A stretch of DNA of 64,000 bases. Source: Euphorbia lathyris. Taxonomy: Eukaryota > Streptophyta > Magnoliopsida > Malpighiales > Euphorbiaceae. Where the stretch lies: contig NC_088911.1 of assembly GCF_963576675.1 (NCBI RefSeq), forward strand, positions 134,171,929-134,235,928, given 5' to 3'. This document shows, in pieces, positions 6,043 to 30,409 of the stretch. Below the pieces are notes generated by a model. That model ran no database searches and had not been told where the DNA came from. It was given only the letters and a program-made list of their open reading frames with translations. The translations under genes were made by a program, and so were the position numbers. Position 1 is the stretch's first letter, and every line of letters begins with the position of its first letter.

Positions 6043-6284
6043 TGTTAGAATGATTCAAAATAAGTTGTTAAACATGTCATATTTCCATGTTATTAGTTTA
6101 GCTGACTAAATCAATTTGTTAGTGGAATCATGGTTTGATATTTATTGCTAATTTTTCTCCTTTTAAGTTGTTTATAAGCCTATATAATAAGCATATGATG
6201 TACGGTTTTTAGTGTGCAGAACATACCGATTAAATAAAATCGTTAGCACCATTTTTTATTATTTCTTTTATACTCAACCCAACA
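6043..6284 (+). repeat. 3' LTR of gag-only Copia
   Basis: Same TGTTAGAATG start as the 5' LTR, ends CCCAACA, then TSD AGATG. A purine-rich AGTGGGAATAT tract precedes it. Confidence 0.85.
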
Positions 6285-7343: not shown

Positions 7344-7351
7344 ATTATAAC

Positions 7352-10329: not shown

Positions 10330-10367
10330 GGAGAGTGTAATTGGAAAAAATCTTTCATTTTATTGGT

Positions 10368-10440
10368 GGGCGACTATATACCACCCCCTGTTGACCATAT
10401 TGCCTTTCTCATTATTTCAAACAAGAAATTTGAAAATTCC
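10368..10440 (+). repeat. Left terminal repeat of the MULE
   Basis: GGGCGACTATATACCACCCCC, then TTGACCATATTGCC and TTCTCATT. It is shorter than the right end, which has an extra tandem 18-mer. Confidence 0.75.
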
Positions 10441-10597
10441 AAATCCTCTCTACTTTCTTTCCGTTTTCAAAAAACCGACCTAAAACGACATGGCACCAAA
10501 AGTAGGCAAGGGCAAAGGATACATGGGTATTACGGTAAGTTTTTCTGTTCAAATAATTAACGAATTATTGATTTTTGGGGCTGAAATCGGGGAAAAA

Positions 10598-10950
10598 AAC
10601 CCAGAAATCGCACCAGGCGGGTGCGATTTACTTGTTCTGCCTACGGTGGAACGCACGAACTGTGCGTTCCACCGTAGGTGGAACAAGTACGCGTCGCGCG
10701 AGCCACCTTATGGTGGAGCGTGCGGCGCACGCGCTCCACCGTAAGGTGGATCGCGCGGCGCACGCGTTCCACCGACGGTGGAACGCATATAAGCCGCGCA
10801 CTCCACCTTATGGTGGAGCGCACGGCGCGCCCGTTTGGCCTACGGGCCAAACGTTTGCGGCGCACCAGTCGGCCCTATGGCCGACTGGTGCGCCGCACCC
10901 GTTTGGGCCTTAGGCCAGGTGGTGTAAGCCACCCGCCCAGGCCAAAAAGG
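10598..10950 (+). repeat. GC-rich hairpin array in PMD intron 1
   Basis: A run of inverted repeats in otherwise AT-rich DNA. Examples: 10640-10656 pairs perfectly with 10662-10678 (17 bp, loop GAACT). 10857-10874 pairs perfectly with 10879-10896 (18 bp, loop CTAT). Between them lie pairs built on CCACCTTA/TAAGGTGG, GCGTTCCACCG/CGGTGGAACGC and CGTTTGGCC/GGCCAAACG. It ends GCCACCCGCCCAGGC, a 15-mer also in the right-hand array. It lies wholly within the first intron (10535-11067). Confidence 0.8.
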
Positions 10951-12972
10951 GCCAAATTTTGTTTTTTTTTTAAAAAAAATTATACGGACCGGGCGTAGGC
11001 AGACCCGAACATATAAAAAATAAAAAATTTATGGTAAATTGAATATAATAAATAAATAATATTACAGGATGAGGCGGGATCTGACCCCAGACACACATCT
11101 TCACGTCCTGTTACTGCATCTGCTCGGCGGGAGCGGACGGAGCAGCAGCGGTTCATGGCGGACGCCCAGAGGGCACATGCAGCACAAGCGGAGCGTGCTG
11201 AGGGACAGGATGAGGCGGCTGATATAGAGATGGACGGAGATGACTCTATGCATCGTCCTAGTTCTGATACTATCCCCATACATCGTGGCGTCGTGACGAG
11301 GGGTCGAGACGGACGATTTTCTTCTACCGCAGGATCGTCTTCTGGTAAGAGAAATTTAAAAATCTGCTTATTTTTATTTGTTTTAATCGTGATTATTGGA
11401 AAATATACCAAAAATTTAATGTAAACCGTTTACTGTAATTTCAGGTAGCAGCAAGCGATCGAGGAGTGCTATAGAGGATGACTGGGTTGTGAAGTACCCC
11501 ATACCCGGGGGTCCATTTGATGGTGCTGTGATCCCGAGCTTTCTAGGACATGTTGCATGTGCTATCTGGGCCGGTCAGGATAGGGGCGTCCTTAGGTGTC
11601 ATACCAGATCAGGGTATTGCTCGAAGCTGAGATTATGGTACAGTGGTTCTTCCAGGACGATTCAGTCGCGTATCGAGTCATCTGGCATGTTCCATTTACC
11701 TGGTATTATGCACAGTCACATAGATGTTGCTCTGATCACGGAATTTGTAGAGCGGTGGCAGCCAGACACGTCATCATTTCACATGCCGTTTGGCGAGATG
11801 ACCATTTTGATGTATGATGTGTGGGAGATATTGCGCATCCCCGTAGATGGTGCCATGGTGACTGCTGATGCGAGTATTGATGAGCTTAAGGAGTGCGTGA
11901 TGGATTTGTTTGGGATGACTCGGGTTGAGTTAGATGCCCGTCATTATTCTTCTGGTGGTATACGAGCCGCTTCCGTCATGGAGCACTGTAGAGGTGATCG
12001 GATTCCTGAGACCCAGGCTATAGCTTGGACGTGGCTGATGCTCGGTTCCACCTTGTTCGTAGACAAGAGTGGTGACCGCATCCGACCTTCTTATCTGTTA
12101 GAGGTGCAGGACTCGACAGCTGGAGCAGTTGGACTTTCTTGGGGATCAGCTGCACTATCATATCTATACTGTCATCTTGGTATTGCTACCAGAGGAGATT
12201 GCGGGCAGATGACGGGTTGTATGACATTGCTCCAGTCCTGGATTTACGAGTATTTTCTTTGCTTCAGGCCACATCGAGAGGCAGTTACAGTTGACCCGGA
12301 TCTTCCTAGGGCTTCGTTGTGGCCATCTATATCGATGGAGAAGAGCGATGAGCGGCTGAGAGCATTTCGTGCCCGGCTTGATGTGTTGACGGCAGATGAG
12401 GTATACTTGCTATATAATTATAAATATTGTTCAATTAAAACAAATTTGTATTACTTGTATGTGTTAATGTAATTTTATACATTTGTAGGTGATGTGGATG
12501 CCGTATGGCCCTGATGCCATTACGGAGACCCCGAGGACTCTATACGCTGGATGGATACGGTATCGGGATGTGATCGAGCCGTACATGTCGGGGAGATGCC
12601 TTCGACAGCTTGGACATGTGCAGACCATTCCTAGACTGATATTGCAGCCTTCTAAGGCTGTGCATCCGTGGACCAGTTTGAAGTATCGTGTAGAGGTGCC
12701 AGCTGTGATGGTGCAAGGTATTTGGGACTCTTTTCCCCAGTCGGCCATCCTTATATTGTCTGTATTCACTCCAGCACATACTCCATCAGATTGTGAGGAT
12801 CAGTACATGCATTGGTACACCCGTCACTCACACCCTCGTCTACTTCCGGAGATTGTTGCACCCGGACCGACTGTTTATACTCGCTCGAACAGTGAGATTG
12901 TAAGTTATTTTTGGTTTTTCTTTACTGATCTACTAATGTGAAATGATATTTACTGAAGTGTGAAGTGATATT

Positions 12973-14310
12973 TGTTGGTCCCTTGTAGGGTTGCAAGTAT
13001 AGTTCCAAGGGGGGGTTAGGAACTATTTAAACTTTTTCGCAATTAGGGCAGACTTCTTTTTCTAAGGAAAAAGGTTTTAACAGCGGCGCTGAGTAAATAA
13101 CAAGATACTGGCTTAGTCAACTGGTGACTAGGTCAGTTTCTTATCTTGAGTCAGGAGATAGCACTTAGAGTCTATTCCTGAGCTCAGACGTTCAGCGCGC
13201 ACAACTCAACTTGACCTTCTTTACTTGGTCAGTTTTTGGTTATTTTAAGCAAGCAATATATATAAGGAGTTAAGGTAAGAAATACTTCACTCAGCAGATT
13301 TATCCAGGTTCGGCTTCTTCTAAGCCTACGTCCTGTCCCCGGAACACGTTCCGAGATTTCGAATCCTCTACTGAGCTCTTTAAAGGTAGAGCCTCAAACC
13401 TTTTACAATATCAGCAACTGAGTATGACAAGAGTACCTTCCTCTATGCCTCTACTCAATCCTAATCTCTCGCTGAGTACTTAAAACCGAGTACTCAGCCT
13501 CTCCTTTCTATCTCTAGAAATGATAAGTGTTTTGTCCTATATAAAGATTTGCTAAGACACTTTAGACGATTGAAACAATCACTCTAGACTTTTACACAGA
13601 TATAAGAATTGTAGTGTAAGATTTTGCTTTGCTTCTTTGCTTGCAGAACTTGTAGAAATTTGGTCAGCGTAACTGCTTGATCAAGTTCTGTGTTGAGTGA
13701 AGCTTCTGATGGCACTATTTATAGAGACGTCTAGGCATCTGTCATTTCGAATTTTGAAATAAACGTTGGAGGGAAACGGCTACATGTCGTTGTCATCCTG
13801 ACTTGCTCAGAGCTCTCGGCCAATCAGAATTGTGTATCTTCTATCCTCGGTCAGCTCAGCAGACTGTCTCTCCTTTTATGGTAAAGTCAACTGGACAGTA
13901 TACTGTGTCGTCTGAACTTTGCCCAAAAGGGAAATACTTTGTCTGGAAGTTTTGCTTTGCCAGCTGCTGTCTTGTACGCTTTGTCGAGACTACTCAGTAG
14001 CTTCATCTTGAAGTTATTCTCGAAGGTCTTCTAGATCCTTCCGTTTGCTGAGTTGCGTTTTGCTCAAAACGGCAACGTCTTGACATACGCGGGCCGAGTT
14101 GTACTGAGTTGTTTTGACTTGGGCCTTGACTTCTGTATTGGGCTTGGGCCTTTTAATCCTTATGTCTTATAACAGTTTTAACTCAACATTGAACAAACAC
14201 ATTAGTAGAATAAATCAAAGCATTTAAACTTAGTGTGTTTAGAATATGTATTTTAAATTATACTTAAACAATTTTGTCAAATCAAAATTATGTGGAAAGG
14301 TGTTTCAACA
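12973..14310 (-). repeat. 3' LTR of SIRE-like Copia
   Basis: 1,338 bp, TGTTGGTCCCTTG...GTGTTTCAACA on the plus strand. TATA box on the minus strand at 13714-13723 (CTATAAATAG). Confidence 0.9.
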
Positions 14311-14931
14311 AACTCCCCCATTCTGATGTTGGCAAAACTATTCAGCGAGGAACTCAGTATGAGCTCCCCCATAATAGTTGACCTAGTATAATTGAGCAAA
14401 CTCCCCCGTAAGGGTTGAGCTAATGACTTAGTTTTACTCAAAACATTTAAAGGTTTAAATGAGTAAGTCTAAGGTCAGTTTTCAGATGTAGGTCAGCTAT
14501 ATCAACATATTCTATTTACTCAGTATTAAGCGGAAGGTTTAGTCATATAGAGCGCGCTGAGTAATTTGTTGTTCAATGAGTTCTTATCAGAATATTTTAT
14601 AAACACATAGGTCAATGTCAAACATGTTATCAGCATATCATTTAGTCAATAAATGTTACAAGTATTAAACATATCTGATTTAATTAAAGATACATAATGA
14701 CTCAGTACTTAATAACATATATCATAACTGAGGATTTGAATAAGAGATGCAAATATGATATATAGATAGAAGTCAGTAATTACACAGCAACATATAGATA
14801 AGGCAAATAGATTACAACGGTCTTAACCTATACTGAGCTAGCCTATCTATTTCTTTTTCTTGTGTTGCGACGACTGACTTCGCTCATGCTGAGCTCTTGC
14901 TGCATGTTCTTTCTCCCCCATTTTGACAACT
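14311..14931. other. Copia 3' untranslated region and polypurine tract
   Basis: On the minus strand it ends in TGGGGGAGTT directly against the LTR (14311-14320), a typical polypurine tract for plus-strand priming. No coding frame seen. Confidence 0.7.
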
Positions 14932-17466
14932 TCAGGGAGTCTGAAAGCATATGTTAATACAGCTCGAGTAATACTGACGTTGGATGTTGTTATGACGAAT
15001 GTGATTGAAGGTGTGTTGTGCGAGAGTCATCATCTCGTTCTGCTTCATTGCGTCAGTATCCATCTCTTGCTTATTCAGATTAAGCAACCTTATAGCCTCA
15101 CCAATTTGCTCTACTGAGCACTGACTGTACGACACCATTTGCTCGTTGGTCTTAAGTTGCTCAGTATGAAGCTGAGCAAAAAACATTTTGAGTTCAGATG
15201 AAGTGGCATAGTCAGTGTTCACAGCTGACAATTTCTGGACTTGTTGATGGAGAGAGTTCAGGTGTTGCACGGTTGTCAGCTGGATCTCAGCCAACTTGGC
15301 AATTGAATCCTGCTTAGCTTGCTGTGCTTGGAATGATAAGACGACGTTCAGCAGATCCTTGAGTCCCTTAACTTCGTTGAGAAGCTGAGTGACTTGGGAG
15401 AGCTGGGTGGTCTCAAGAATTGAAGATCCAGCAGCAGGAGAAGTGGAATGTTGAAGGTCTCTGATTAATACTTGCACTGAGTCAATGATATTTTTGCCGG
15501 ACTCAGTGGCATTCAGATGGCTTTGTGAAGCTTCAGGGACATCAGTATGACCGGAAGGAAGAGGAGTGAAGGGGGTAACCTGGTCAGTGACTGGAATAGT
15601 ATGCTCAATCTGTACTTGAGTTGTAGGAATTGTTGATTGATCGGCAGAGAGTTGAGTTGGAGAAGTTGTAATGCGAATATTGTATGTGCTGACGGCAGAG
15701 GTGTGTGGAGTCAGCACCATGCTTGAGGAAATAGCATGAACAGTAGACGACTCAACCTGACTGGTTGATGTTGCAAAAGCATTGGGGTCGGCATGTTCCT
15801 GTTGAGAAGAAACAGAGGCTTGTTTTTCTAAAGCCGCCGATGTAGTGGAAGTGGATTGGCATTTGAAAAACTTGAGTTTGACGCTAGAAGGGTCCTTAGT
15901 TGTCTTTGAGACGACAAAGTCGGGAAGAGTTGGTATTTGCACAGGAGGTTCACTGACTAGCTTCTCACTGGCCTTGACCAACTTTCGCCTTCTTCGAGGT
16001 GGAGTGACAGTATTATCAGGTTCTCCTGAGTGAGAAGGGGAAGATTCTTGTTGCTCAGTATGAGGCTGGTCAGCTTGCTCTTCAGCTGGATCAACAGTGT
16101 GTTGATCGAGTACTTGCTCAACTCCAACAGCCAACTCAGTATCGGCATGCTCAACCTCAATCTCATTGGCTGTTTCCTCAGAGTCATCAGCGTCATCATG
16201 ACCGCTGGCTTCTTCTTCTTCTTCTTCAGTACTGTCACCATCAAGTTCTTCCTCAACTTGAGAGATGAAGTGATCATCTAGTTGAACCTCATGTTCATCA
16301 TGCTCAGTTTCTGTACCTTGACACTGGGTGAAGTGAGAGTCACCCGGTACAATAAAGTCAGTAGGTATGGCGTTCAGTGGAGCCAGTGTTGAAGACTTCT
16401 GCTTCTTCTGAGGTTGCTCCATAGCTTCCTCAGTTCCAGGCTCACCTTGCCTGCTTCTTTTCTCAGCTGACTTACCAGCTGACTTCTGCCTCTTTGCTGG
16501 AGACTCAACATTTTTAGAAGGAGTCTCAGCAGTTTTCCTCTTGTGGGAAGCTGGGGCCTTAGTCCTTCGCCCTTTCTTTGGCTCAGCAGTTTCCTCAGCT
16601 TGGCCAGCAGCAACAGCAACTTTGCCTTTCTTTAAGGGCTGTCCAAACTTCAATGCCCTCAGCGAGGCAGCTGTTATCTCAGATCCTCGATTTTTCTCCT
16701 CACCTTCAAGATCAATCTTATGGTCAATGAGGATTCTGGTGATGAGTGATCCAAGCCACATCGTGCCAGTGCTTCGAAGGAAACCAGCAACGAGGAAGAC
16801 CGGCATGTTGATGGGAGTGTACGTCAGCATGTGCCATATGAAGCACTGCTCGAAATTTGTTGCTGATGTAGTGCAGTTGATCTTCGGGTAGATGAAGTAG
16901 GTCAGCAAGTAGTGAGCCATCTTCTGGTGCTGACCCATTGATGAAGCTGACACTTCTCCTGAGTGACCCTCAGGTTTGCAAAAGTTGTGTGCATAGTTAG
17001 TTTTGTCCTGATCTCTCGATCTTCTCAGCCTTGCTCCCTCAGATTTTAGCTTGAGAAGATTTCCTATGTAGAGAGGGTTGATGACGATGGTTTTGCCTTT
17101 CACCTCAGTGCACAGGTAGTCAGTGTTGTCATTGGCAACTTTGAGGTTGTGGTAAAACTCCCTCACTAGGTCAGGATAGGTTTCATCCCTAACCGAAAAC
17201 AGCTCAGTCCAGCCGTTTTGTGAAATCCATTCGCAGAAGGGTTGTTCGTTCTGTACGAAGTGTTCTGAGACCCATCGGGAAGGCTCAACTTTCCATTCTC
17301 GTACGTTCTCAAAAACTTTGGAGTAGGTGCGAACTTTCACAGTCTTTCCTTGACCAGAGGTTTGGCCAGTTTTTCCCTTGCTCGGCGTAGGGGGATTTCC
17401 AGTAGGTTCATCGGAGCTAGTCTTTTGGTGGCCGGCACCGGAGGTATTGTAAGAAACCTTAGTCAT
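14932..17466 (-). CDS. SIRE-type third ORF (envelope-position protein), 844 aa
   Basis: An uninterrupted 844-codon frame between pol and the 3' LTR. Residues 1-45 are polar and basic. Residues ~50-280 form a compact region with WVSEHFVQNEQPFCEW, VREFYHNLKV, GKTIVINPLYIGNLL and QHQKMAHYLLTYFIYPKIN, resembling the 'putative plant transposon protein' domain found in SIRE-like elements. A hydrophobic stretch lies at ~219-247. Next come Lys/Ala-rich and acidic Glu/Asp-rich tracts (~390-470), Ser/Thr-rich DNA, and a Gln-rich, heptad-like C-terminus that may form a coiled coil. In SIRE1 the ORF at this position was called env-like; I see no clear signal peptide. Function unknown. It is intact while gag-pol is not. 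Confidence 0.7.
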   Translation of the reverse strand: MTKVSYNTSGAGHQKTSSDEPTGNPPTPSKGKTGQTSGQGKTVKVRTYSKVFENVREWKVEPSRWVSEHFVQNEQPFCEWISQNGWTELFSVRDETYPDLVREFYHNLKVANDNTDYLCTEVKGKTIVINPLYIGNLLKLKSEGARLRRSRDQDKTNYAHNFCKPEGHSGEVSASSMGQHQKMAHYLLTYFIYPKINCTTSATNFEQCFIWHMLTYTPINMPVFLVAGFLRSTGTMWLGSLITRILIDHKIDLEGEEKNRGSEITAASLRALKFGQPLKKGKVAVAAGQAEETAEPKKGRRTKAPASHKRKTAETPSKNVESPAKRQKSAGKSAEKRSRQGEPGTEEAMEQPQKKQKSSTLAPLNAIPTDFIVPGDSHFTQCQGTETEHDEHEVQLDDHFISQVEEELDGDSTEEEEEEASGHDDADDSEETANEIEVEHADTELAVGVEQVLDQHTVDPAEEQADQPHTEQQESSPSHSGEPDNTVTPPRRRRKLVKASEKLVSEPPVQIPTLPDFVVSKTTKDPSSVKLKFFKCQSTSTTSAALEKQASVSSQQEHADPNAFATSTSQVESSTVHAISSSMVLTPHTSAVSTYNIRITTSPTQLSADQSTIPTTQVQIEHTIPVTDQVTPFTPLPSGHTDVPEASQSHLNATESGKNIIDSVQVLIRDLQHSTSPAAGSSILETTQLSQVTQLLNEVKGLKDLLNVVLSFQAQQAKQDSIAKLAEIQLTTVQHLNSLHQQVQKLSAVNTDYATSSELKMFFAQLHTEQLKTNEQMVSYSQCSVEQIGEAIRLLNLNKQEMDTDAMKQNEMMTLAQHTFNHIRHNNIQRQYYSSCINICFQTP

Positions 17467-17939
17467 TTTCGAGGATGGGGAAGGTTTAGAAGGATCTTGA
17501 GAGAGAAAGTTTCTTTGCCTTATAATTTGATTAAGCGTAAAGAATAAAAAATGGGGAATTACCCATTATTTATAGATGGAATGAGCGGTGTGGATTTAAT
17601 CAAATCCATGTGTCAGTTTTGCCTTGGGATTGTGTACCGACAAAGATCCTGGCATTTATGACACATACGGCGAATACGTCATCCTAGGGCTATACGCGTG
17701 CTTTTGCATTCATTCTAATGGATCTAACACTCAGCGTGTAAAATACTAAGCGTTTGATATTCTGAGTGGTCAGTATTGCATTTACGGATGATTTTAAAGT
17801 TTAAGTTTAAACTAATTTACTCAGTGTGCAAGTTTACTCAGTATTTGATGTTCAGTCAGTTTCGATGAGTTACTCAGCAAACAATCAATCATTCAGCATA
17901 GTAATTCACTCAGCATTCATATTCATTTAGCACAGGAAT
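17467..17939. other. Spacer between Copia pol and ORF3
   Basis: 473 bp without a frame. It is rich in CTCAGT/ACTGAG repeats, as is much of this element. It may hold the signals for expressing ORF3 (spliced or internal), but none can be proved. Confidence 0.5.
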
Positions 17940-20900
17940 TTACTGAAGAGGATTAAACATACCAATTGCTTCTCTTAGTATGCTGAACTGCTCACGGGCC
18001 AGTGGCTTCGTGAAGATATCCGCAAGCTGTTCGTCCGTTGGGACAAAAGTCAGCTTGATCTCACCCTTGAGTACATGGTCTCTAATGAAGTGATGTCTAA
18101 TGCTGACATGCTTCATTCTGCTGTGTTGAATTGGGTTCTTTGAAAGATCAATTGCACTTTTGTTGTCACACTTGACTTCAATTGTCTTCGTTTGAACACC
18201 ATAGTCTTCAAGCTGTTGCTTAATCCATAGGACTTGAGCAACACAATGACCAGCAGCAATGTACTCAGCTTCAGTGGTAGACAAGGCTATCGACGCCTAC
18301 TTTTTGCTGAACCAGGATACAAGACAGCTTCCTAAGAAGTGACATCCTCCAGAGGTGCTTTTACGTTCTAGCTTATCCCGTCCATAGTCAGCGTCAGTGT
18401 ATCCGATGAGTGTAAAATCATGAGTATTTGGATACCATAGACATGCATTCACTGAGCTTTGCAAATATCTAAGGATTCTTTTTACAGCAATGTAATGAGA
18501 TTCCTTAGGGTTAGATTGATATCTAGCACAGTAGCATACTGAAAACTGAATGTCCGGTCTACTGGCTGTTAAGTAAAGTAGAGAGCCTATCATACCTCGA
18601 TATAATTTGCTGTCTACTGACTTACCATTCTCGTCAGCACAGAGGACAGTGTCAGTGCCCATAGGAGTGGATATTGGCTTGCAATTTTCCAAGTCATATT
18701 TCTTTAATATCTCCTTGGCATATTTGGCTTGACTGGTGAAGATGCCATTCTTTCCTTGTTTAATTTGAAGGCCGAGGAAGAAGTTGAGTTCTCCCATCAT
18801 GGACATTTCAAACTCAGTCTGCATTTGTTTGCTAAACTCCTTGCACATTGATTCGTTAGTTGCACCAAATATTATATCATCAACATAAATTTGGGCCAGC
18901 AGGGTATCTTTACCCTTTCTCTTAATGAATAAGGTTGTATCAGCTTTGCCCCTGACGTAATTTCTAGTCAGCAGGAAACTGGTCAGCCTCTCATACCAAG
19001 CACGTGGTGCTTGCTTGAGGCCGTACAGAGCCTTTTTGAGTTTGTAAACATGATTTGGGAACTTAGGGTCCTCAAAACCTGGAGGTTGATTTACATAAAC
19101 CTCCTCGTTTATAACTCCATTAAGAAATGCACTTTTGACATCCATTTGGAATAATTTAAAGTTCATGTAAGATGCATATGCACATAGAATTCTAATTGCC
19201 TCTAGCCTTGCCACTGAGCTACAAGCCTTGCTTTGTTCCTGACTACGTTTCCTTGTTCATCCATCTTGTTCCTGAAGACCCATCTTGTTCCGATGGTCTT
19301 TTGACTCTTTGGATGAGGCACTAACTCCCATACATCGTTTCTTCTAAATTGATCGAGCTCCTCTTGCATTGCGATCATCCAGAATTCATCGTACTCAGCT
19401 TCAGTGAAATTCTTTGGTTCTTGTACTGAGATGAAGGCAACATTGCTGAGGTACTTCCTGAGTTGATTCCTCGTCATCAGGGTATTCCCAGCAGAATCAA
19501 GGATTGCACTTTCTGAGTGCCCTCTTAGAATCCTTATCTCTTTAGGTAGATTTATGTCTTGTGCTGTCTCTGTTTCAACAATCTCTGCAGAAGTAGATGG
19601 GTCAGTAAAAGTAATCTTAGGCTCACTCTTACTCTTGGTCAGCCTTTTCGTGAATGACTCAGTAGCTGGTTCTTGGTCAGCGGTGGTTACTGAGTGTGGA
19701 TCATCTTCGGTCAGCGGCTGGTATCTACCTGCAGGGTCAGTTTCGTCAAACTCTACATGTACTGACTCTTCTAAAACTTGAGTTCGCTTATTAAAAACTC
19801 TGTATGCTTTGCTGTTTGTTGAGTAGCCCAAAAAGATAGCCTCATCAGCTTTTGAATCAAACTTTGCTAAGCTATCTTTGGTATTTAAAATAAAACATCT
19901 ACAGCCAAAGGCACGAAAGTATCCTATATTGGGCTTTCGTCCTTTCCAAAGTTCATAGGGGGTTTTCTTTAATATAGGTCTAACTAGAGCCCTATTAAGA
20001 ATATAGCATGCTGTGTTAACAGCCTCTCCCCAAAAATACTTTGGAAGCCTATGCTCATCCAGTATTGTCCTGGCTATTTCAACCAGAGTTCTGTTCTTCC
20101 TTTCTACAACCCCATTTTGCTGAGGTGTTCTAGGAGCAGAAAAATTGTGGTCAATGCCGTTGGCTTCACAGAATTCAACAAACTTTTGGTTTTTGAATTC
20201 TCCACCGTTATCACTACGGATGTGAGCTAATTTTAGGTCTTTTTCATTTTCAATTTTTCTAACCAAATTTGAAAATGTCTCAAAGGTCTCATCCTTGCTG
20301 GTCAGCAAGATAACCCACGTATACCAAGAGAAGTCATCTACAATGACCAAGGAAAATCTTCTTCCACCCAGACTCAGCGGCTGGACTGGACCGAAGAGAT
20401 CCAAGTGTAGTAACTCTAACGGACGTTTAGTTGAGACGATATTTTTGCTATGAAAAGACTGTTTGGTTTGTTTTCCAGCTTGGCAAGCGTGGCATAATTG
20501 ATCTTTTTGAAATTTAAGTTCAGGCAGTCCCTCAACCAATTGCTTTCTTGCTAGTTTGGCCAGGAGGTCCATGCTTACATGACCAAGTCTCCTGTGCCAT
20601 AGCCAGAAATTTTCTTCCTTTGATACTAAGCACACAGTTTTTGAAAACTTTTTCTCTAAGTCTAGCATAAAGACATTATCTATCCGAGGGGCAGTTAAAA
20701 TTAACTAATTTGTTTTACCCTCGTATATTTTACATCTAGTAGCATCAAATATAACTTTTCTCCCATTGTCACATAGCTGAGCTACGCTGAGTAAGTTATA
20801 TTTGAGTCCGCTGACTAGGGAGACAGATTCAATAGTAGGATTACCTCCGATGGTTCCTGACCCTACTATCTTACCCTTCTTGTTGTCTCCAAAACTTACG

Positions 20901-21030
20901 TTCCCTCCTCGTTTACGCTCAAACGTGATGAACTGAATTTCATCACCCGTCATATGCCTTAAGCATGCGCTGTCAATATACCACATCTTTGACTTCTCGG
21001 CACATCTCAGGCTTACCTGCATTGTAACTA
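17940..21030 (-). pseudogene. Copia pol (protease, integrase, RT, RNase H), broken
   Basis: In order on the minus strand: protease near 20960 (WYIDSACLRHMTG, where the usual DSG reads DSA), GAG-pre-integrase and HHCC zinc region (WLWHRRLGH, then CHACQAGK), integrase DDE core (LHLDLFGP, IRSDNGGEF, NGVVERKNRTL), RT with the IYVDDIIFG active site near 18885, and RNase H (STTEAEY, then DNKSAI, HIRDHV). Defects: a stop at 20705, a stop at about 18295, and at about 19215 a deletion with frameshift joining the 'RLVAQ' motif directly to 'VARLEA', so the conserved residues between them are missing. A functional polyprotein is not possible. Confidence 0.85.
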
Positions 21031-22758
21031 GTTACTTTTAGGTACCCAATTCTTTTTGGGTCCTTGCTTGTTAGGTGCAACAGGTAAAGCATCATATTTT
21101 ATTTTATGGCGACATACATGGACAGTATGGCCATTCTTTCCACAGAAGTCAAAACTGACCTTCTGTTTAGGATGTTTCACTGACTTGTCAGCACCCCAGT
21201 GCTGAGCGTGCCAGCACACCTTAGTGGTGTGTCCTAACTTCCCACAAAAGTCACACTGGACTTTTCACTGGGGATTCCATCTCTGCTTAGTACCTTGGTA
21301 CTGAGTTCTCAGAGGACTGTTTCTTTTATTTGGAACCTTTAGTTGGCTCTGGATAGTTGTGACGTCCTTACTCAATTTCTTTGAAACTGACTGGACTTCA
21401 GAGACAGACTCATGTATGATCTTCATGTTATCATGCAGAGTTGTATTGTCCTGAAGAAGGTATCTGAGGTCACTCAGTTTGACCTCTTCCACTTCGTCAC
21501 AGCGCCTGCTGAGTGCTCTAACTTTCTTATTACACTTCTTGACAAGTGTATAGAGATCACTCAGGGCATTAACCATATCGTTTCTGAGCTGGGGAAGAGA
21601 AATTACCTCATTTGATTGCTCCTCGTCTTCTGATAGGTCAGCATGCTCAGAGACGCATGGCTCAGCAAGTTCGTCAGCCATGAAGCATATCTTCGCTGAC
21701 TCGGTGGCCTCAGTTTCTGTAGATGAAGGCTCATCGCTGTCGCTCCAAGTATCCACCATTGCTTTCTTCCCACTTTTCTTGTCTTTCCTCAACGTGGGGC
21801 AGTTTGACTTAATATGGCCAGTTTGATGGCACTCAAAGCATGTAATGGGCTTTGAGCTGTCCTTTCTGTATTTGCTATCACTTGAGTCAGCCTTATACTT
21901 ATCAAAATTTCTGTAAGGCTTTTTAGAGTATTTGTCACTCTTCCTGAATAGCCTTTTTATCTTCCTTGTGAACATAGCCATCTCCTCATCGTCAGTTGAA
22001 CTCCCATCAGTGGAGTCAGCTTTCATGACAAGGGATTTCTGCTTCTTGACTTCAGATTTTTCCTTCACCTCAAAGTTTTTCATGGATATCTCATGGGTCA
22101 GCAATGAACCGATGAGTTCGTCATATTTGTAGGTGGTTAAATCCTGAGCTTTCTCAACTGCTGTCTTCTTTGCTTGCCAGTCTTTAGGAAGACTCCTGAG
22201 AATCTTTTTGACTTGTTCTTCCTTAGTGAAGATTTTTCCAAGTCTCTTGAGCTCATTAATTATGTTGGTAAACCTTGCATTCATGTCTGAAATGCCTTCA
22301 TCATTGTTCATCTCGAATAGCTCGTACAGTCTCATCTACTGATTCACCTTGGACTCCTTTACTTTATTGGTTCCCTCGTAGGTGACTTCCAGCTTTCTCC
22401 AGATCTCTTGTGCCGACTCACAACCTGAGATTTTATTATATTCTGCAGCATCGAGCGCACAGTGAAGCATATTGATAGCCGAAGCATGGTTTTGGAGCTT
22501 CTTAAGATCATCCTCTGTCCATTTGGCCTCAGCTTTTACAACTGTTTAGCCAGCCACAACCTCGACAGGTACAAATGGGCCTTGAACTATAGATAGTCAG
22601 GCACTCATGTTTGTAGCCTGAATGAAGTTTTTCATCCTATTCTTCCAGAAGGTATAGTTTGACCCGAAGAATATGGGAGGCCTAGTAATGGACAGCCCCT
22701 CAGGCAGTATTTGAGTTGTTTGGTTTCCAGGGAGAAACCGAGTGCTGTTTTCGCCCAT
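21031..22758 (-). pseudogene. Copia gag (DUF4219/UBN2, zinc knuckles), stop-interrupted
   Basis: Starts at the ATG at 22758 (MGENSTRFLPGN) and shows the plant Copia gag pattern: PPIFFGSNYTFWKNRMKNFI, the AAEYNKISGCESAQEIWRKLEVTYEG region, and LPKDWQAKKTAVE. A CCHC knuckle (CFECHQTGHIKSNC) lies near 21840, and two more zinc-finger-like CDFCGKLGH/FDFCGKNGH motifs near 21240 and 21150. In-frame stops fall at about 22612, 22552, 22336 and 21262. This is the particle-forming protein of the element, now disrupted. Confidence 0.8.
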
Positions 22759-22806
22759 GGTAGGGATCAGCTCAAGGTTGTTAAACCTTTTAGAGTGAGC
22801 TTTTAA

Positions 22807-22818
22807 GCTCTGATACCA
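22807..22818 (-). other. Primer-binding site (initiator tRNA-Met)
   Basis: On the minus strand TGGTATCAGAGC, two bases inside the 5' LTR border. It fixes the orientation of the Copia. Confidence 0.9.
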
Positions 22819-22820
22819 CT

Positions 22821-24158
22821 TGTTGGTCCCTTGTAGGGTTGTAAGTATAGTTCCAAGGGGGGGTTAGGAACTATTTAAACTTTTTCGCAATTAGGGCAGA
22901 CTTCTTTTTCTAAGGAAAAAGGTTTTAACAGCGGCGCTGAGTAAACAGCAAGATACTGGCTTAGTCAACTGGTGACTAGGTCAGTTTCTTATCTTGAGTC
23001 AGGAGATAGCACTTAGAGTCTATTCTTGAGCTCAGACGTTCAGCGCGCACAACTCAACTTGACCTTCTTTACTTGGTCAGTTTTTGGTTATTTTAAGCAA
23101 GCAATATATATAAGGAGTTAAGGTAAGAAATACTTCACTCAGCAGATTTATCCAGGTTCGGCTTCTTCTAAGCCTACGTCCTGTCCCTGGAACACGTTCT
23201 GAGATTTCGAATCCTCTACTGAGCTCTTTAAAGGTAGAGCCTCAAACCTTTTACAATATCAGCAACTGAGTATGACAAGAGTACCTTCCTCTATACCTCT
23301 ACTCAATCCTAATCTCTCGCTGAGTACTTAAAACCGAGTACTCAGCCTCTCCTTTTTATCTCTAGAAATGATAAGTGTTTTGTCCTATACAAAGATTTGC
23401 TAAGACACTTTAGACGATTGAAACAATCACTCTAGACTTTTACACAGATATAAGAATTGTAGTGTAAGATTTTGCTTTGCTTCTTTGCTTGCAGAACTTG
23501 TAGAAATTTGGTCAGCGTAACTGCTTGATAAAGTTCTGTGTTGAGTGAAGCTTCTGATGGCACTATTTATAGAGACGTCTGGGCATCTGTCATTTCGAAT
23601 TTTGAAATAACCGTTGGAGGGAAACGGCTACATGTCGTTGTCATCCTGACTTGCTCAGAGCTCTCGGCCAATCAGAATTGTGTATCTTCTGTCCTCGGTC
23701 AGCTCAGCAGACTGTCTCTCCTTTTATGGTAAAGTCAACTGGACAGCATACTGTGTCGTCTGAACTTTGCCCAAAAGGGAAATACTTTGTCTGGAAGTTT
23801 TGCTTTTCCAGCTGCTGTCTTGTACGCTTTGTCGAGACTACTCAGCATCTTCATCTTGAAGTTGTTCTCGAAGGTCTTCTAGATCCTTCCGTTTGCTGAG
23901 TTGCGTTTTGCTCAAAACGGCAACGTCTTGACATACGCGGGCCAAGTTGTACTGAGTTGTTTTGACTTGGGCCTTGACTTCCGTATTGTGCTTGGGCCTT
24001 TTAATCCTTATGTCTTATAACAGTTTTAACTCAACATTGAACAAACACATTAGTAGAATAAATCAAAGCATTTAAACTTAGTGTGTTTAGAATATGTATT
24101 TTAAATTATACTTAAACAATTTTGTCAAATCAAAATTATGTGGAAAGGTGTTTCAACA
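22821..24158 (-). repeat. 5' LTR of SIRE-like Copia
   Basis: 1,338 bp. TATA box on the minus strand at 23563-23572 (CTATAAATAG) is the likely element promoter. About 20 substitutions from the left LTR by eye. Confidence 0.9.
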
Positions 24159-24436
24159 ATATTAACTCTGTTTTTTGTTCCTTACTTTTGACAGTGGGTT
24201 AGTCGATTAGCTGGCTAGGGTGAAACTGTGTTGGATCATATGAGTCATCTGGACGAGGATGCTGCGATTGTATATAGGCAGTCGTTAGAGCAGATTATGG
24301 GTGCTTGGCATTTGGCCAAGTGGGTTATGACTGTATTTCGAAGTATTTTAGTACTATTATGACTGAATTTGGTATTTTGATATTATCGTTTTTTTGTGGT
24401 ACCCTTTGTTATTATTGCAAATTTAAGAATACATTA

Positions 24437-24552
24437 CCAGGACATAAACTGAAAAAATACATGACAACGACATAAACTGAAAAAATACATTACAACGACA
24501 TAAACTGAAAAAATACATTACAACGACATAAACGGAAAAAAATACATAGGTC
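24437..24552. repeat. Short tandem repeat, ~28-bp unit x4
   Basis: GACATAAACTGAAAAAATACAT plus a short spacer repeats four times with small changes, just beyond the end of the PMD gene and the C-terminal end of the unknown minus-strand ORF. Confidence 0.7.
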
Positions 24553-24554
24553 AC

Positions 24555-25712
24555 TATCTTCTTCGTACTCGTCAATGTTTGGTGAAGATGTCGCTGGTAC
24601 ACCTGACTGTATTGCAAGTAGACCTGTCCACGGGCCCGGGTACCCGCCCAGGCCCGTGTCCCTTGGACCGGACTTGGACAATAAAAATTGTTCATCGGCC
24701 CAGGCCCGCCAAAGCCCGTCTATTTTTTGGGCGGGCTTGGGATTAATAAAAATAACACGGGCCGGGCCGGCCCGACCCGCTTATTAATATTAATTAATAA
24801 ATATTTATTTATATATTAAATATTTATTTTTAAGTATAATATTTATTTTTTTATAATTAACAATTATATATATATATTTAGGTGGGCTTATATGGGTTGG
24901 GTTCGGGATTTGATTTTTAAGCCCGAGCCCGCCTAAATTAATTGTGGGCTGGGCTGGGCTTGGGCTGAGCATTTTTACTTAAAAACCCGACTGGTCCGGC
25001 CCGAGCCCGGCCCATGGACAGGTCTAATTGCAAGGTATATCTCTTTCTCCTCTGCAATATTCGTCTCATATTCCACAGGAAAAATGTTCCATGGAGCATT
25101 TCCTCTATTTCTTGGCCAAGCTCGTCCTGGAAGGTAATTGTTCTTTGAAGCGCTGATACTCTGTAGTACTCGAACCTCTAATTTATAGCGATCCCAATTT
25201 TGCACGATCGAGTAAGGATAAGTTCGATGAACCTCATGAGAAATTTCAGACTCTGTCCATCTTAAAAAGATGATGGAGTTGAAATTTTTTCTAGGGATAA
25301 TTCCCCTCTGATTATCACGCAGTAGTCTGGCGAACATAGCTTTCCAGTCATCAATAGGCATAAACCACTTCAGAAATGTTTGAATATGACTAGGAATATT
25401 TCCTTCATTCAAACTGTTCAACCATTCCTCTAGAGCAAATTCAAAAGGCATGTAATACATATAACATAAGAACCATAGCATGTGTAGTGAGTATATTGGA
25501 AACTCACCAGCAGACGGAAGCTTGAAGCAAAACATAAATGGAGTTTCAGGATGGAACATTGCTGGACTCACAAATGTCTCTCCATATACACGGATTGCAT
25601 AGTATTGGTAATCAAGCATCTTCGCCGTGCAATCAGACTTACTCAAAGTTGACACTATGCTTTTCTCGGGAGGAAAATTAGGGAACACATTGGTAAAATC
25701 AGATGAAGCCAT
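24555..25712 (-). pseudogene. Unrecognised ORF of the MULE, C-terminus split by a hAT MITE
   Basis: The ATG at 25712 opens a protein of about 225 residues before the MITE border at 25026 (245 codons open including MITE sequence). It starts MASSDFTNVFPNFPPEKS. The middle is aromatic-rich (LHMLWFLCYMYYMPFEFALEEWL, FLKWFMPIDDWKAMFARLL) and a later part reads FLRWTESEISHEVHRTYPYS. Beyond the MITE, after one TSD copy, the frame continues as IQSGVPATSSPNIDEYEEDSDL, so the insertion broke a longer protein. A TATAAAAT box lies upstream on the minus strand near 25785-25792. I do not recognise the family. It lies downstream of the OTU ORF in the same direction, inside the MULE. Confidence 0.5.
24619..25026. 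mobile_element. hAT-like MITE, perfect 8-bp TSD ATTGCAAG
   Basis: A 408-bp element with 18-bp inverted ends TAGACCTGTCCA[C/T]GGGCC and identical flanks ATTGCAAG (24611-24618 and 25027-25034). Subterminal CCCGGCCC/GGGCCGGG blocks on both sides. It interrupts the C-terminal coding part of the minus-strand ORF. Confidence 0.9.
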
Positions 25713-25796
25713 TGATAGTTGAGAGTTTTCGTTGAAATGAATTTAAAGAGTAAATGTGGATAACTGAAGTAGAAAAATTGTTTAATTTTATAGATG

Positions 25797-25876
25797 GAAA
25801 ATATAGCCGTTTGAATATATCCGTTTGAATATAGCCGTTGGAATATAGCCGTTGGAATATATCCTGTTCGAATATA
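25797..25876. repeat. 17-bp tandem repeat upstream of the unknown ORF
   Basis: About five copies of ATATAGCCGTTTGAAT with small changes (GTTGG for GTTTG). It lies between the minisatellite and the TATA box of the minus-strand ORF, so it could be promoter-proximal. Confidence 0.65.
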
Positions 25877-25907
25877 TTCCTTGGATTACAACCTGACAAA
25901 ATTCTTT

Positions 25908-27090
25908 ACAATTCATCACAATTGACCTGTAACATTACAGAACCACACAGAATTAATCACAATTCACATGTAACATTACAGAACCACACAGAATTCATCA
26001 CAATTGACCTGCAACATTACAGAACCACACAGAATTAATCAGAATTGACCTGTAACATACAGAACCACACAAAATTAATCAGAATTGACCTGTAACATTA
26101 CAAAACAACACAGAACCACACAGAATTCATCACAATTGACCTGTAACATTACAGAACCATACAGAATCACACAGAATTAATCAGAGATGACCTGTAACAT
26201 TACAGAACAACACAGAATTCATCACAATTGACCTGTAACATTACAGAACCACACAGAATTAATCAGAATTGACCTGTGACATTATAGAACCACACAAAAT
26301 TCATCACAATTGACATGTAACATTACAGAACAACACAGAATTAATTAGAATTGACCTGTAACATTACAAAACCACACAGAATTCATCACAATTGACCTGT
26401 AACATTACAGAACCACACAGAATTCATCACAATTGACCTGTAACATTACAGAACAACACAGAATTAATCAGAATTGACCTGTAACATTACAGAACCATAC
26501 AGAATTCATCACAATTGACCTGTAACATTACAGAACCACACAGAATTAATCAGAATTGACCTGTAACATTACAAAACCACACAGAATTAATCAGAATTGA
26601 CCTGTAACATTACAGAACAACACAGAACCACACAAAATTCATCACAATTGACATGTAACATTACAGAACCATACAGAACCACACAGAATTAATCAGAGAT
26701 GACCTGTAACATTATAGAACAACACAGAATTCATCACAATTGACCTGTAACATTACAGAACCACACAGAATTAATCAAAATTGACCTGTAACATTACAGA
26801 ACCACACAGAATTAATCAAAATTGACCTGTAACATTACAGACCAACACAGAACCACACAGAATTCATCACAATTGACCTGTAACATTACAGAACCATACA
26901 GAACCACACAGAATTAATCAGAATTGACCTGTAACATTATAGAACAACACAGAATTAATCAGAATTGACCTGTAATATTACAGAACCACACAGAATTAAT
27001 CACAATTCACCTGTAACATTACAGAACCATACAAAACCACACAGAATTCATCACAATTCACCTGTAACATTACAGAACCATACAATATCA
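25908..27090. repeat. 41-bp minisatellite inside the MULE
   Basis: About 27 head-to-tail copies of a unit with the core GACCTGTAACATTACAGAAC, followed by CACACAGAATT. Two sub-types alternate irregularly: one continues CATCACAATT, the other AATCAGAATT. Some units carry an extra CATACAGAAC or AACACAGAAC segment. It fills the gap between the OTU stop codon and the promoter of the unknown ORF. No other copy in the window. Confidence 0.9.
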
Positions 27091-27094
27091 AATA

Positions 27095-27730
27095 CTAATA
27101 TCCCCTAAGTTTGGCCAATCTGGTCCACTGTGCCACCCTATCCTGATAGAAGCGCTCCCATCCTACAACGCTTTGACCTCGTTGTAGAAACCACCAGTGT
27201 ATTATAGGGGGCACCGGAAAGTTAGGCGATAAATTTAAACGTATGTAGTGATGGTAGTGATTCCCTAAATGAGCTATACAAATCTCACGTGATGGTCTTG
27301 TAGCAGTGGATGCGGCATACAATGGTAAGATAGTACCACACAACGCTAATGTGTCCCCACCCGAGAAGCCAAATAACATGATAGCAGCATTGTACATTGT
27401 AGCAACCGGCCACAAGTCATCCCAAACGAGCATCCAATAATCCGGCGTACAACCTGCACCGTCCCAACTTACCCTACGAAGAGCTGCATCAACAGTATCA
27501 ACAAACACTCTTTGATACAGACAACGGTTAGTAATTACTTCATTTCGAATGTGATGCCTAACTGTCTGCCACGCTTCTTCGTCACAAAAAATGTAAGTTG
27601 CTACCGTACGGAAACCACAATTTCCATCACCTACAACGTCGTAGTATGATTCGACATATGGTTTAATTATGCCAACTATTTTATCGGAATGTACGAAGTC
27701 AGAACCATAATACGTTTTTTCCATCTGCAT
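27095..27730 (-). CDS. OTU-family cysteine protease ORF of the MULE, 211 aa
   Basis: OTU proteases cleave ubiquitin or ubiquitin-like chains. The catalytic pattern is visible: GDGNCGFR with Asp35 and Cys38, then LGNHYHHY near residues 155-162 supplying the His. The N-terminus MEKTYYGSDFVHSDKIVG precedes the domain, and the C-terminus is a Trp/Arg-rich tail. It lies 77 bp past the transposase exon-3 donor (27808) on the same strand. Simple GT-AG splicing from that donor to the AG at the start of this ORF gives another frame, which stops after nine codons. It is therefore either a separate gene with its own ATG (27730 or 27724) or the frameshifted C-terminal part of a transposase-OTU fusion. 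No internal stop. Confidence 0.75.
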   Translation of the reverse strand: MQMEKTYYGSDFVHSDKIVGIIKPYVESYYDVVGDGNCGFRTVATYIFCDEEAWQTVRHHIRNEVITNRCLYQRVFVDTVDAALRRVSWDGAGCTPDYWMLVWDDLWPVATMYNAAIMLFGFSGGDTLALCGTILPLYAASTATRPSREICIAHLGNHYHHYIRLNLSPNFPVPPIIHWWFLQRGQSVVGWERFYQDRVAQWTRLAKLRGY

Positions 27731-27807
27731 TCATGTATATTAGTGTAAATGAACTCTATATTGCAAAACATTTATAAAAAAAGTTAGGTTTATCAGATAA
27801 ACATTAC

Positions 27808-30241
27808 CTGATGAGGCACCATTATGTATCGAGGATGACGAGCTAATTCTGCCACTTCTACCACGACTCCTAGATGAACTAGTAGAACGAGCCCGTCCAC
27901 GACGAGTTTCATTGTATTCCCAAGAACTCGGCATACGTTTTGTGGATTTGCTCACCTTAGGTCGCCCTCGCACGTGAATTTTGACATCGGGTTCGGTGTA
28001 CTGAGCTTGATCAGGGTGTAGTTGATCATGGATAAACATTGAAATATTACGCATTAAGGATGGGTCGCCTTTAGAGACCTGGTCCACTAAGGACTGAAAA
28101 TATCGCTGCTCCTCGTTCAGATCATTACGCCCGTCATTTTCATCAGTGTGACCATGATTGATTAAAAGTGTTCTCCAAAACACATGAACACTCTCAGTAC
28201 TGATCATTTGTTCTAGATCACAAGCTCGTTTCAGCTCGCATGCACATGGTATCTGATGCGATGTTCTCAATACACAACCGCAACGCACATACACTTCATG
28301 GCTCAACCCTCTCATGCGCTCTAACTCTTCATTCAGCAACTGCAGACAGTAGTGAGAGACTTTGAATACAAGTTGGCTTAATGGGCGTCCGGCGAAAGTG
28401 ACTGCTTGACGAAGCCGGGATTGCTCAAGCATGTACCTGATACGAAGACAAAATTATTATTAGTTAGTGAAATGATACAACCATAAATGCAAATTCCTAA
28501 ATTGCAGTAGAAGAAATTGTAAATACCTTATATTGGTTGCTTGTGATTCAATCTGCTTGTGAACCTTCTGCCATACCGTGTCAAGGGAGCCAGTTGCCAT
28601 ATTGAGCCATTGCTTTAGACTAGCATGTTCGCTCTCCACTCGACAAGTAGTTGTGTTGCCAAAATGTAGGAACTCCTTTGTCCAAGCAACAACAAACTTC
28701 TCCTTATGCACCAACCACGTCTCCTCAACATACGAGATAACTCCTTTGTACCTGCTCATCTTATCCTTCATCATCATAAGATTGGTCTCGTACTCCTCAA
28801 TGGTTAATGATTATAATATTGTTCTCCATCTGCCATTCTTGAATTTAGAGGCAAGGCCTTTATCTCCCATGATTCTATACACACGATCTTCCACATCCTT
28901 ATTTATATGCCAAGTGCATAGCAAGTGCGCTGCTTGTGGAAAAACTTCTTGGATCGGCTTTAATAACCCAAGCTCCCTGTCACTAACAACAACGATCGGG
29001 TTAAGATCATCCCCAATCAAAATCTTCAGCCTTTGCAAAATCCAACGATAGCTCCCTTCGGTCTCGTCTTTAACAATAGCATACGCTATCTTGAAGTTAT
29101 TATTGCATGGCGTCATCCCCACAATCTCAACAAACGGCATTTTGTACTTGTTTGTTTTGTACGTTGAATCAATGCCGATGTACCAGTGGTAAGTCCTGAA
29201 CATATCAACTGACTCTGGATGTGCCATGAACACATGCGTTATCACACCTGAATCAGCCTGTGTGTAATTGACATATTTGTTCTCCACAGCAATATGGTAG
29301 AATTGACTAGCCAGGTCTCTACCTTCAAACCCGTCCCTCCTCATTTTGTCCCTGTAATTATATATGTGTTTAATTACTGAGTTGTCCTCTGGGTGTTTTT
29401 CTTTAAGTGCTGCTAAAATAGCACAAGGCTTTGCTTGAGCTGAAGTCATATCACGCACAATTTGTTTAGATGCGATACTGAGTCCGCTCATTTGCCGACT
29501 TCCCTCTGGATACATACGCATTGTATGGTTATGCATTCCAGCTAACCCAGCCTTAGCCTGTATCCCCCATCCAGAAAGGTCTGCATGTTGATAGGCTTTA
29601 ATCTGAAATTTACAGCGACACGCTTTAGTTTTACTTTTCCTAATTGCAGGATATTCATCAATTTTCACAACACCTCTATATCGTTCACCCCGTGAACATC
29701 GCAACAGCTTCTGTTTTCCCCCATGTTTGTGCGAAGATATTACAATCTCAAACCCATTCTGAATAGCTATCTTTTTTGCCCAATCAATAGCATCCTGACT
29801 TGAGGGGAAAACGGTATCCGTTATGAAACGCGAACTATAATCAATGTTATCGGGGTTCCAATCTTCTATCGGTACCTGAATATATGAAAAATTGACATTA
29901 AAATTAAAAAAAATACTTCGGGGCTATTTCTCCCGTGCAAAAATAGTTCGGGGCAATTTCTGCCCATTTTTACCTAAACGGGCAGGCTGCCCGTTTCACC
30001 ATAGGTGGAAACGGGCAGCGCGTACTGCCCGTTCCATGGGTGGAGCGGGTGGCACATACCACCCGTTCCGTAGGCCGAACGGGTAGTTCATCCGTTCGGC
30101 CTAGGGAACAGGTGGTATGCGCCACCCGCCCAGGCAAAAACCAAAAAAAAAAAAAAATCGAAAATACCTAAATAACGTTTTTAATAATCGTAATATTACC
30201 TCGTGTTCGAACTCATTATCTTCGGGAATGCTTTGATCCAT
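27808..30241 (-). pseudogene. MULE transposase (MURA/FAR1 type) with SWIM finger, one in-frame stop
   Basis: Exons: 30200-30241 (14 codons), 28527-29875, 27808-28436, all GT-AG and in frame. A FAR1-like zinc-binding N-terminus (CSRG, CRCKF, HNH) lies at ~73-131. The MULE DDE core follows: YIGIDSTYKTNKYK (Asp ~250), VVVSDRELG (Asp ~313), CTWHINKD (C/H motif) and a late Glu in VESEHASLK. A SWIM finger in exon 3 reads CGCVLRTSHQIPCACEL, with the last His replaced by Cys as in many relatives. The C-terminus is Arg/Ser-rich and may be nuclear-targeting. It would bind the element ends and catalyse cut-and-paste. A TAA at 28811-28813 splits the core after RWRTIL, with homology continuing in frame, so this copy is probably dead. 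Confidence 0.85.
29925..30150 (-). repeat. GC-rich hairpin array in transposase intron 1
   Basis: Counterpart of 10598-10950 at the other end. 29976-29996 is a perfect 10-bp-arm palindrome around AAACGGGCAG. Then come ACGGGCAG/CTGCCCGT, GGGTGG/CCACCC and TAGGCCGAACGG/CCGTTCGGCCTA pairs. It ends GCCACCCGCCCAGGC, the same 15-mer as the left array, then a poly-A run. It lies within the first intron (29876-30199). Confidence 0.8.
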
Positions 30242-30319
30242 TTTTGTCAAATCCGGGATTTGTGCTCGGGAGAGAAAAGTAGAGAGAGTTTTTAAGGTTT
30301 TGGGAAAAAAAAAATAAGA

Positions 30320-30399
30320 AGGGCAATATGGTCAAAAGGGTGCGGTGAACCGGAATTTAGGGGCAAACCGGAATTTAGGGGCGGTATATAGCAATATCC
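30320..30399 (-). repeat. Right terminal repeat of the MULE
   Basis: Read from the right: GGATATTGCTATATACCGCCCC, two tandem copies of CCCCTAAATTCCGGTT, then TTTTGACCATATTGCCCTTCTT. The order matches the left end, with the tandem 18-mer as the main difference. Confidence 0.75.
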
Positions 30400-30409
30400 T
30401 TTTATTGTT

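Follow-up and report, generated by a model that had tools for sequence, protein, structure and literature searches.

Among plant Mutator-like elements (MULEs), the groups MUDR, MUDRAVI2, and MULE-Solanaceae_1 are described with a transposase bearing a SWIM-type finger and with a plant mobile domain (PMD) gene in antisense orientation to it; their target site duplications measure 9-10 bp where given, and MULE-Solanaceae_1 is additionally listed with an unknown open reading frame (ORF) (Dupeyron 2019, PMC6446971). We analyzed a stretch of 64,000 nucleotides of the genome of caper spurge, Euphorbia lathyris (hereafter the window; contig C2, 134171929-134235928), which hosts an insertion resembling these groups in its SWIM-like finger and its antisense PMD gene. 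The insertion is probably a degenerate copy of a large E. lathyris MULE family, characterized by a FAR1-like transposase with an ovarian tumour (OTU) protease domain as its last exon and by a convergent PMD gene. The most unexpected part of the analysis is a further gene, ORF4, which has relatives in PIF/Harbinger elements.

Roles in transposition or in its defense have been put forward for both accessory domains. PMD was suggested as a possible anti-silencing tool of MULEs (Ikeda 2017, PMC5418596), while OTU proteases in Ginger1 and Helitrons and Ulp1 proteases in MULEs were proposed to act during transposition (Bao 2010, PMC2836005). The latter source also describes Ginger1, in which, as in the element presented here, an OTU cysteine protease domain is located at the C terminus of the transposase. 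VANDAL elements with VANC are likewise MULEs with extra genes and with short motifs in noncoding tandem arrays (PMC5735166, PMC10398659, PMC6446971).

Delimitation and Copies of the Family

The MULE as a whole spans positions 10366..30399, a delimitation based on its ends, an 8-bp target site duplication, and the occurrence of the same ends in 16 of 20 sibling copies. Subtraction of a nested copia element leaves a length of ~8.84 kb, and six complete siblings measure 7.5-8.4 kb. The terminal inverted repeats are located at 10366..10416 (left, plus strand, 21 bp shorter than in siblings) and at 30309..30399 (right, minus strand, containing an 18-bp tandem duplication at 30348-30382). Their best ungapped block matches at 31 of 37 positions with a score of 44, while the maximum among 2000 shuffles was 27 and only 1 of 5000 random window pairs attained 44. 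The matching ends, which had been pointed out in an earlier reading of this DNA from its letters (the sequence-only reading), thus withstood both controls. The same reading had proposed a 10-bp duplication (9/10 matching) with the element starting at 10368; the duplication itself stands, but as the perfect 8-mer TTTTATTG at 10358..10365 and 30400..30407, with the left end, known from the sibling copies as GTGGGCGACTATATACC, at 10366 and the right end at 30399. Among the 16 siblings with both ends, 12 are flanked by perfect duplications of 8-11 bp, one by an 8-bp duplication with one mismatch, and three by none. The 12 perfect siblings and the window reached a duplication score of at least 8, compared with a top score of 7.1 in 272 swapped-flank controls. 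The DDE transposase domain, the inverted repeats, and the duplications of 8-11 bp place the element in the Mutator superfamily.

The family was searched for in the E. lathyris genome (1.02 Gb in 33 contigs), and all counts obtained are lower bounds. Apart from the window, at least 39 further copies with 90-98% identity were found by means of the left end (best 40 of 879 candidates), next to at least 150 OTU loci (best 150 of 1361 candidates; with the window counted in, a tally by eye gave 105 that are free of stops), and at least 150 ORF4 loci (best 150 of 474 candidates). The complete set of PMD, ORF4, tandem array, OTU, and transposase between both ends is present in 6 of the 20 siblings (L011, L012, L020, L023, L024, and L026), supporting the earlier view of one element in which PMD and transposase genes converge and which also includes an OTU sequence and a fourth ORF, the latter recurring in these complete siblings. 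Ten others (L009, L010, L013, L014, L017, L019, L021, L022, L027, and L028) represent internal deletions with both ends kept. Copies bounding only the transposase side were not seen in this set; the 16 copies with both ends had all been found by the PMD-side end. Out of five copies chosen by their OTU sequence, L031, L032, and L033 show both ends, whereas a single end was seen within the 10 kb examined in L029 (transposase side) and in L030 (PMD side).

The PMD gene is encoded on the plus strand, antisense to the transposase as in the MUDR-type group. Its main exons at ~11441-12424 and 12489-12899 (together 11441..12899) match the Pfam PMD model with E-values of 5e-38 and 4.7e-5, the second lying under the curated cut-off. 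A predicted first exon (10490..10534) is seen in all 20 sibling copies, which is partly so by construction, as the left-end query spanned it. The predicted last exon (24195..24363) lies beyond the copia insertion and contains an in-frame TAG.

Transposase with an OTU Last Exon

Four exons on the minus strand make up the transposase gene: a predicted exon 1 (30200..30241), exon 2 with the MULE DDE domain (28527..29875), exon 3 with a SWIM-like finger (CxC...CxC) and a serine/arginine-rich tail (27808..28436), and exon 4 with the OTU domain (27095..27724; Cys38 and His161). The MULE transposase domain is recognized by Pfam (PF10551, E 2.1e-25). The SWIM finger consensus is CxCx(n)CxH. Both in the window and in P0014, a plant gene model introduced below, the finger reads CGC...PCAC, with the final His replaced by Cys, and departs from that consensus. 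Hence, of the MURA/FAR1 transposase with SWIM finger assigned earlier, the MULE transposase is retained, whereas the finger is better termed SWIM-like.

The identity of the OTU domain is backed by a profile match (E 9.6e-6) and by a fold comparison that was OTU-like. Its active-site residues, Cys38 of the DGNC motif and His161, are invariant in 15 of 15 proteins. While the earlier assignment to the OTU cysteine proteases is therefore kept, the stand-alone ORF assumed along with it is not: as judged from junctions and gene models, the OTU domain is the last exon of the transposase and not a separate gene, because reading continues in frame across the junction, as SSDGKTY or a similar peptide, in all 12 other readable copies (L011, L012, L013, L020, L023, L024, L025, L026, L029, L031, L032, and L033; unreadable in L010 and L030, with L021 devoid of OTU) and because fused gene models exist in E. 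lathyris and Bienertia. When the OTU portion of the joined protein served as query, three longer proteins were retrieved, namely P0012 from E. lathyris (94% identical, 24 member sequences) as well as P0013 and P0014 from Bienertia sinuspersici (40-41% identical, MULE domain present), all of them fused gene models. In addition, the E. lathyris protein P0002 begins in the transposase tail and continues into OTU via the same junction as in the window. The idea that PMD and OTU constitute two separate 'B' genes consequently fails for OTU, it being fused to the transposase.

Further relatives of the OTU domain were observed. P0001 and P0002 represent E. lathyris lineages at ~64% OTU identity, P0003-P0010 are relatives of up to 58% identity on short contigs (831-2262 bases), and in P0011 (Beta vulgaris LOC104896805) this OTU domain is preceded by an N-terminal part that does not resemble the transposase tail.

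In comparisons of young with divergent copies, dN/dS (nonsynonymous to synonymous substitution rates) was 0.43 for transposase exon 2, 0.58 for exon 3, and 0.48 and 0.57 for PMD, with broken copies shifting all such ratios towards 1.

ORF4 in MULE and PIF/Harbinger Elements

ORF4 (25029..25712, minus strand; 3' end cut by a small nested element) is an accessory gene that the MULE has in common with PIF/Harbinger elements. As sampled, it is newer than the rest of the MULE family. In four of four older copies (L029-L032, OTU DNA 88-91% identical) ORF4 is absent and the tandem array adjoins OTU; the last PMD exon directly follows the array in L030, L031, and L032, with L029 lacking the 3' part of PMD. 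ORF4 is present in L033, the OTU sequence of which is 96% identical.

A relative of ORF4 (74%) was detected at locus L034, flanked on one side by a NAM-associated ORF and on the other by a transposase of the Plant_tran (PIF/Harbinger) type, and no MULE gene was found there within 10 kb. Pfam matches to PF04827 (E 2.6e-96) and PF14303 (E 1.6e-9) identify a Harbinger-type transposase together with a NAM/Myb-like ORF1. As tentative termini, a TAA pair with a 13/16 inverted repeat at 2450-7356 was the best of 15 pairs listed. L035 repeats this trio of genes in unchanged order, and the 4 kb of L036 show the transposase and ORF4 arranged as in L034 with no match to ORF1. The search with the L034 ORF4 also found relatives at ~50%. 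We selected 16 ORF4 loci, being those least similar to the MULE versions among the matches listed; nine of them lie less than 5 kb from one of 92 scored Harbinger transposases, all nine in head-to-head orientation, while random points were equally near in 13 out of 20000 cases. Harbinger-linked loci include L034, L035, L036, C5:45211840, C4:71113313, C9:22188317, C9:33873023, and C1:99093844, and five Harbinger-linked ORF4s that were compared are 46-96% identical to each other.

Comparison of MULE with Harbinger ORF4s (12 pairs) resulted in dN of 0.15-0.17 and dS of 0.50-0.62. Because the resulting ratio amounts to 0.25-0.33, ORF4 looks like a selected accessory gene common to two transposon superfamilies. 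The strong DNA similarity between them (79-81% over ~683 bp) is limited to ORF4 itself. The MULE versions form one clade in the ORF4 tree (support 97/98), the root of which is open. Two Harbinger clades share 46-50% identity, whereas one of them shares 71-76% with the MULE versions. Since the Harbinger clades are further apart from each other than one of them is from the MULE, and since ORF4 is absent in the older MULEs, a transfer from Harbinger to MULE is the direction we would favour.

ORF4 is not readily linked to known protein families. Neither ORF4 nor its Euphorbia peplus relative P0015 had a match in Pfam at E up to 10, including none to DUF1985 or DUF287, so that an assignment of ORF4 as a VANC relative by domain was rejected. 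The best hit in a sequence search of the PDB had an E-value of only 0.11, and a structure model built from two sequences reached a pLDDT (predicted local distance difference test score) of 35.

Tandem Arrays and the Palindrome

Between the transposase gene and ORF4 lies a tandem array of 26 copies of a 41-bp unit (25910..27084), which contains 26 sites of the palindrome CTGTAACATTACAG at up to 2 mismatches, 15 of them exact, with none elsewhere on that strand in the window. The palindrome is not clearly better conserved than the remainder of the unit. Arrays of older copies match at ~64-83% per hit and yet retain exact copies of the palindrome (4, 4, 7, and 8 in L029-L032), with 6 in L033. A second, 28-bp tandem repeat (24428..24547) is placed between the 3' ends of ORF4 and PMD. 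Counted on either strand, the octamer TGTAATGT appears 24 times in the MULE, exclusively in the two repeat arrays. The Harbinger element L034 hosts six copies, every one of them in the interval separating the 3' ends of ORF1 and ORF4; 300 shuffles gave a mean of 0.34 and never more than 3.

In the older copies, transposase-OTU and PMD converge on the array with their 3' ends; in young copies the array is separated from PMD by ORF4, which is encoded on the transposase strand. The array being older than ORF4 in the sampled copies, we rejected ORF4 as the sole reason for its existence. In plants, UGUA is a far-upstream poly(A) element, the number of which correlates with terminator strength (PMC11245536). 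Because the palindrome places UGUA on both strands, the array most likely acts as a two-way transcript terminator, the simplest interpretation.

Proposed Mechanism and Alternative Explanations

The transposase would act by the usual cut and paste. In cis, its OTU domain may strip ubiquitin off the transposase itself or, at the site of excision or at the target, off chromatin or repair proteins, which could lead to a longer-lived transposition complex or to easier repair. PMD and ORF4 would be retained as helper genes, and the array would end transcripts in both directions. Extending this to ORF4, we tentatively propose a portable helper selected in two superfamilies and passed from PIF/Harbinger to MULE within Euphorbia, the target of which may be an obstacle set by the host (silencing or nuclear access) rather than either transposase; the young MULE would then stack PMD, ORF4, and a fused ubiquitin protease.

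Several observations weigh against parts of this scheme. With regard to the family, L011, L020, and L027 have both ends without target duplication, no right end was found within 10 kb in 4 of the 20 siblings (L015, L016, L018, and L025), and each of the six complete copies contains stops or frameshifts in the tested segments. Among the listed loci, 42 of 150 OTU loci are without a scored ORF4 and 42 of 150 ORF4 loci without a scored OTU within a 10-kb range, although some partners may lie outside the lists and some of the other loci are deletion copies. As to the fusion, no Pfam OTU model matches the OTU domain, P0012 is missing its N-terminal half and the final OTU stretch and runs into array-coded residues, the transposase of P0013 is shortened, and P0014 is devoid of a short OTU segment. 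Two of the nine Harbinger-linked ORF4s are neighbours on C10, at a distance of ~4 kb, and do not count as independent cases. The palindrome CTGTAACATTACAG also has two sites on the other strand outside the MULE (46030 and 52294), and young copies have the 3' end of the transposase on one side of the array and the 5' end of ORF4 on the other, which leaves the older copies as the basis of the terminator argument. Finally, OTU evolves faster than exon 2 (young-versus-divergent dN/dS 0.82 vs 0.43), and within the young group its ratio is 2.07, with very few synonymous changes and not significantly off neutral. OTU is the least constrained part measured, which may count against a strict essential role or may reflect diversification. 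Significant positive selection was rejected, as also the shared changes of the young group (5 nonsynonymous to 0 synonymous) are not significant.

Two other explanations concern the OTU domain. In the window, its frame has an ATG of its own at the start and is not in phase with exon 3, as would be expected from a separate accessory gene; in light of the 12 in-frame junctions elsewhere and the fused models P0012, P0013, and P0014, we rejected this explanation as highly improbable. Greater weight, though still on the unlikely side, is given to OTU as a passenger, a piece captured from the host that plays no role in transposition. MULEs are known to capture host sequences (PMC5418596), and both ratios just given, the non-significant one above 1 among young copies and that of 0.82 against older copies, would suit a passenger. 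The fusion, on the other hand, occurs in two plant orders (Malpighiales and Caryophyllales), and the invariant Cys/His pair as well as the 105 stop-free loci among the 150 best-scored likewise argue against a mere passenger.

For ORF4, the proposed passage from Harbinger to MULE has to be compared with a host gene captured separately by both, with no passing between them, an explanation that we regard as possible, if doubtful. It fits the lack of a Pfam family, the single E. peplus relative P0015 of unknown context, the open rooting of the tree, and the absence of a scored Harbinger transposase from the neighbourhood of 7 of the 16 selected ORF4 loci. It is less easily reconciled with the single MULE clade, being nearer to one Harbinger clade than this clade is to another, and with the uniform head-to-head arrangement at all nine Harbinger-linked loci. 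The array, in turn, could serve as a binding region in a VANC-like targeting system, VANC proteins binding short motifs in fast-changing noncoding tandem repeats of transposable elements (PMC5735166, PMC10398659). The motif persists here while the unit changes, the array of young copies is found just upstream of ORF4, and TGTAATGT clusters beside the Harbinger ORF4 too. Nonetheless, the array predates ORF4 in the sampled MULEs and lies there tail to tail as a terminator would, the Harbinger cluster is likewise situated between two 3' ends, UGUA number tracks terminator strength in plants, and ORF4 has no Pfam VANC domain; VANC-like targeting thus appears unlikely in comparison with the two-way terminator.

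Nested Insertions and Damage in the Window Copy

The window copy is broken by the nonsense codon at 28811-28813 in transposase exon 2, a 1-base frameshift (one extra A) at the OTU junction, and the in-frame TAG in the last PMD exon. Over half of the MULE span consists of a nested copia long terminal repeat (LTR) retrotransposon (12973..24158, minus strand), which is not part of the MULE and sits in the predicted PMD intron preceding the last exon. Over 1340 bp, its two LTRs share 98.4% identity, and the 5-bp duplication ATATT flanks it. An ORF of 877 amino acids (14932-17565) was rejected as a MULE gene, since it lies inside this element; it is extra to the copia pol and matches Pfam Transposase_32. 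Such an extra ORF beyond pol is a feature of Sirevirus-type elements, to which the copia element may belong. A second insertion foreign to the MULE, a hAT-like miniature inverted-repeat transposable element of 408 bp (24619..25026; type judged by eye), is flanked by the 8-bp duplication ATTGCAAG and truncates the 3' end of ORF4.

GC-rich palindromes occur at 10634-10936 and 30045-30140, within what is predicted as intron 1 of each of the two convergent genes; they are partly alike and vary among copies. Outside the MULE, a Gypsy-type element (45850-52519) has its gag-pol frames apparently split, between 47371 and 48358, by a reverse transcriptase fragment of the long interspersed nuclear element (LINE) type, and near-identical fragments occur at 54177-54810 and 62199-63269 (all types by eye).

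Comparison with Known Systems

No report of a plant MULE with OTU was found in the open-access literature searched, among the matches listed. A study by Babu in 2006 on WRKY-GCM1 fingers and transposons is said to bear on MULE-linked domains, and an earlier report there is possible. Apparently new is a plant MULE family with a transposase-OTU fusion and an accessory gene common with PIF/Harbinger, the antisense PMD being already in print. In the available part of the survey by Dupeyron (2019, PMC6446971), the plant rows mention neither OTU nor an ORF shared with Harbinger, unlike the E. lathyris MULE. For VANDAL, the same part lists PMD and/or a DUF in half of the group members and no OTU, and ORF4 differs from VANC in being without DUF1985/DUF287. 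MuDR-6_HM of Hydra is a MULE listed there with an 'Ovarian Tumour Gene'; compared by this table entry, it differs in being cnidarian and in forming its own group 14. Ulp1-bearing MULEs of melon, Arabidopsis, rice, and maize (cited in PMC2836005) likewise encode a ubiquitin-family cysteine protease, but one of the SUMO-protease family and not OTU.

The PIF/Harbinger elements share the ORF4 relative, which at some E. lathyris loci stands head to head with the transposase, as an accessory in common with the MULE; they differ in their Plant_tran/DDE_Tnp_4 transposase, their NAM-associated ORF1, and a 3-bp duplication assigned tentatively. One accessory gene under apparent purifying selection would thus occur in two unrelated transposon superfamilies of one genome, a case which helps to tell transposase-tied from host-tied functions and supplies a concrete protein to test. 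Ginger1 differs from the MULE in superfamily, in its animal hosts, and in its Gypsy-integrase-like transposase (PMC2836005). If OTU acts in cis, plant MULEs have reached the same transposase-protease fusion as this animal element; this would suggest that cut-and-paste transposition generally requires deubiquitination, and would provide a plant system in which to test it.

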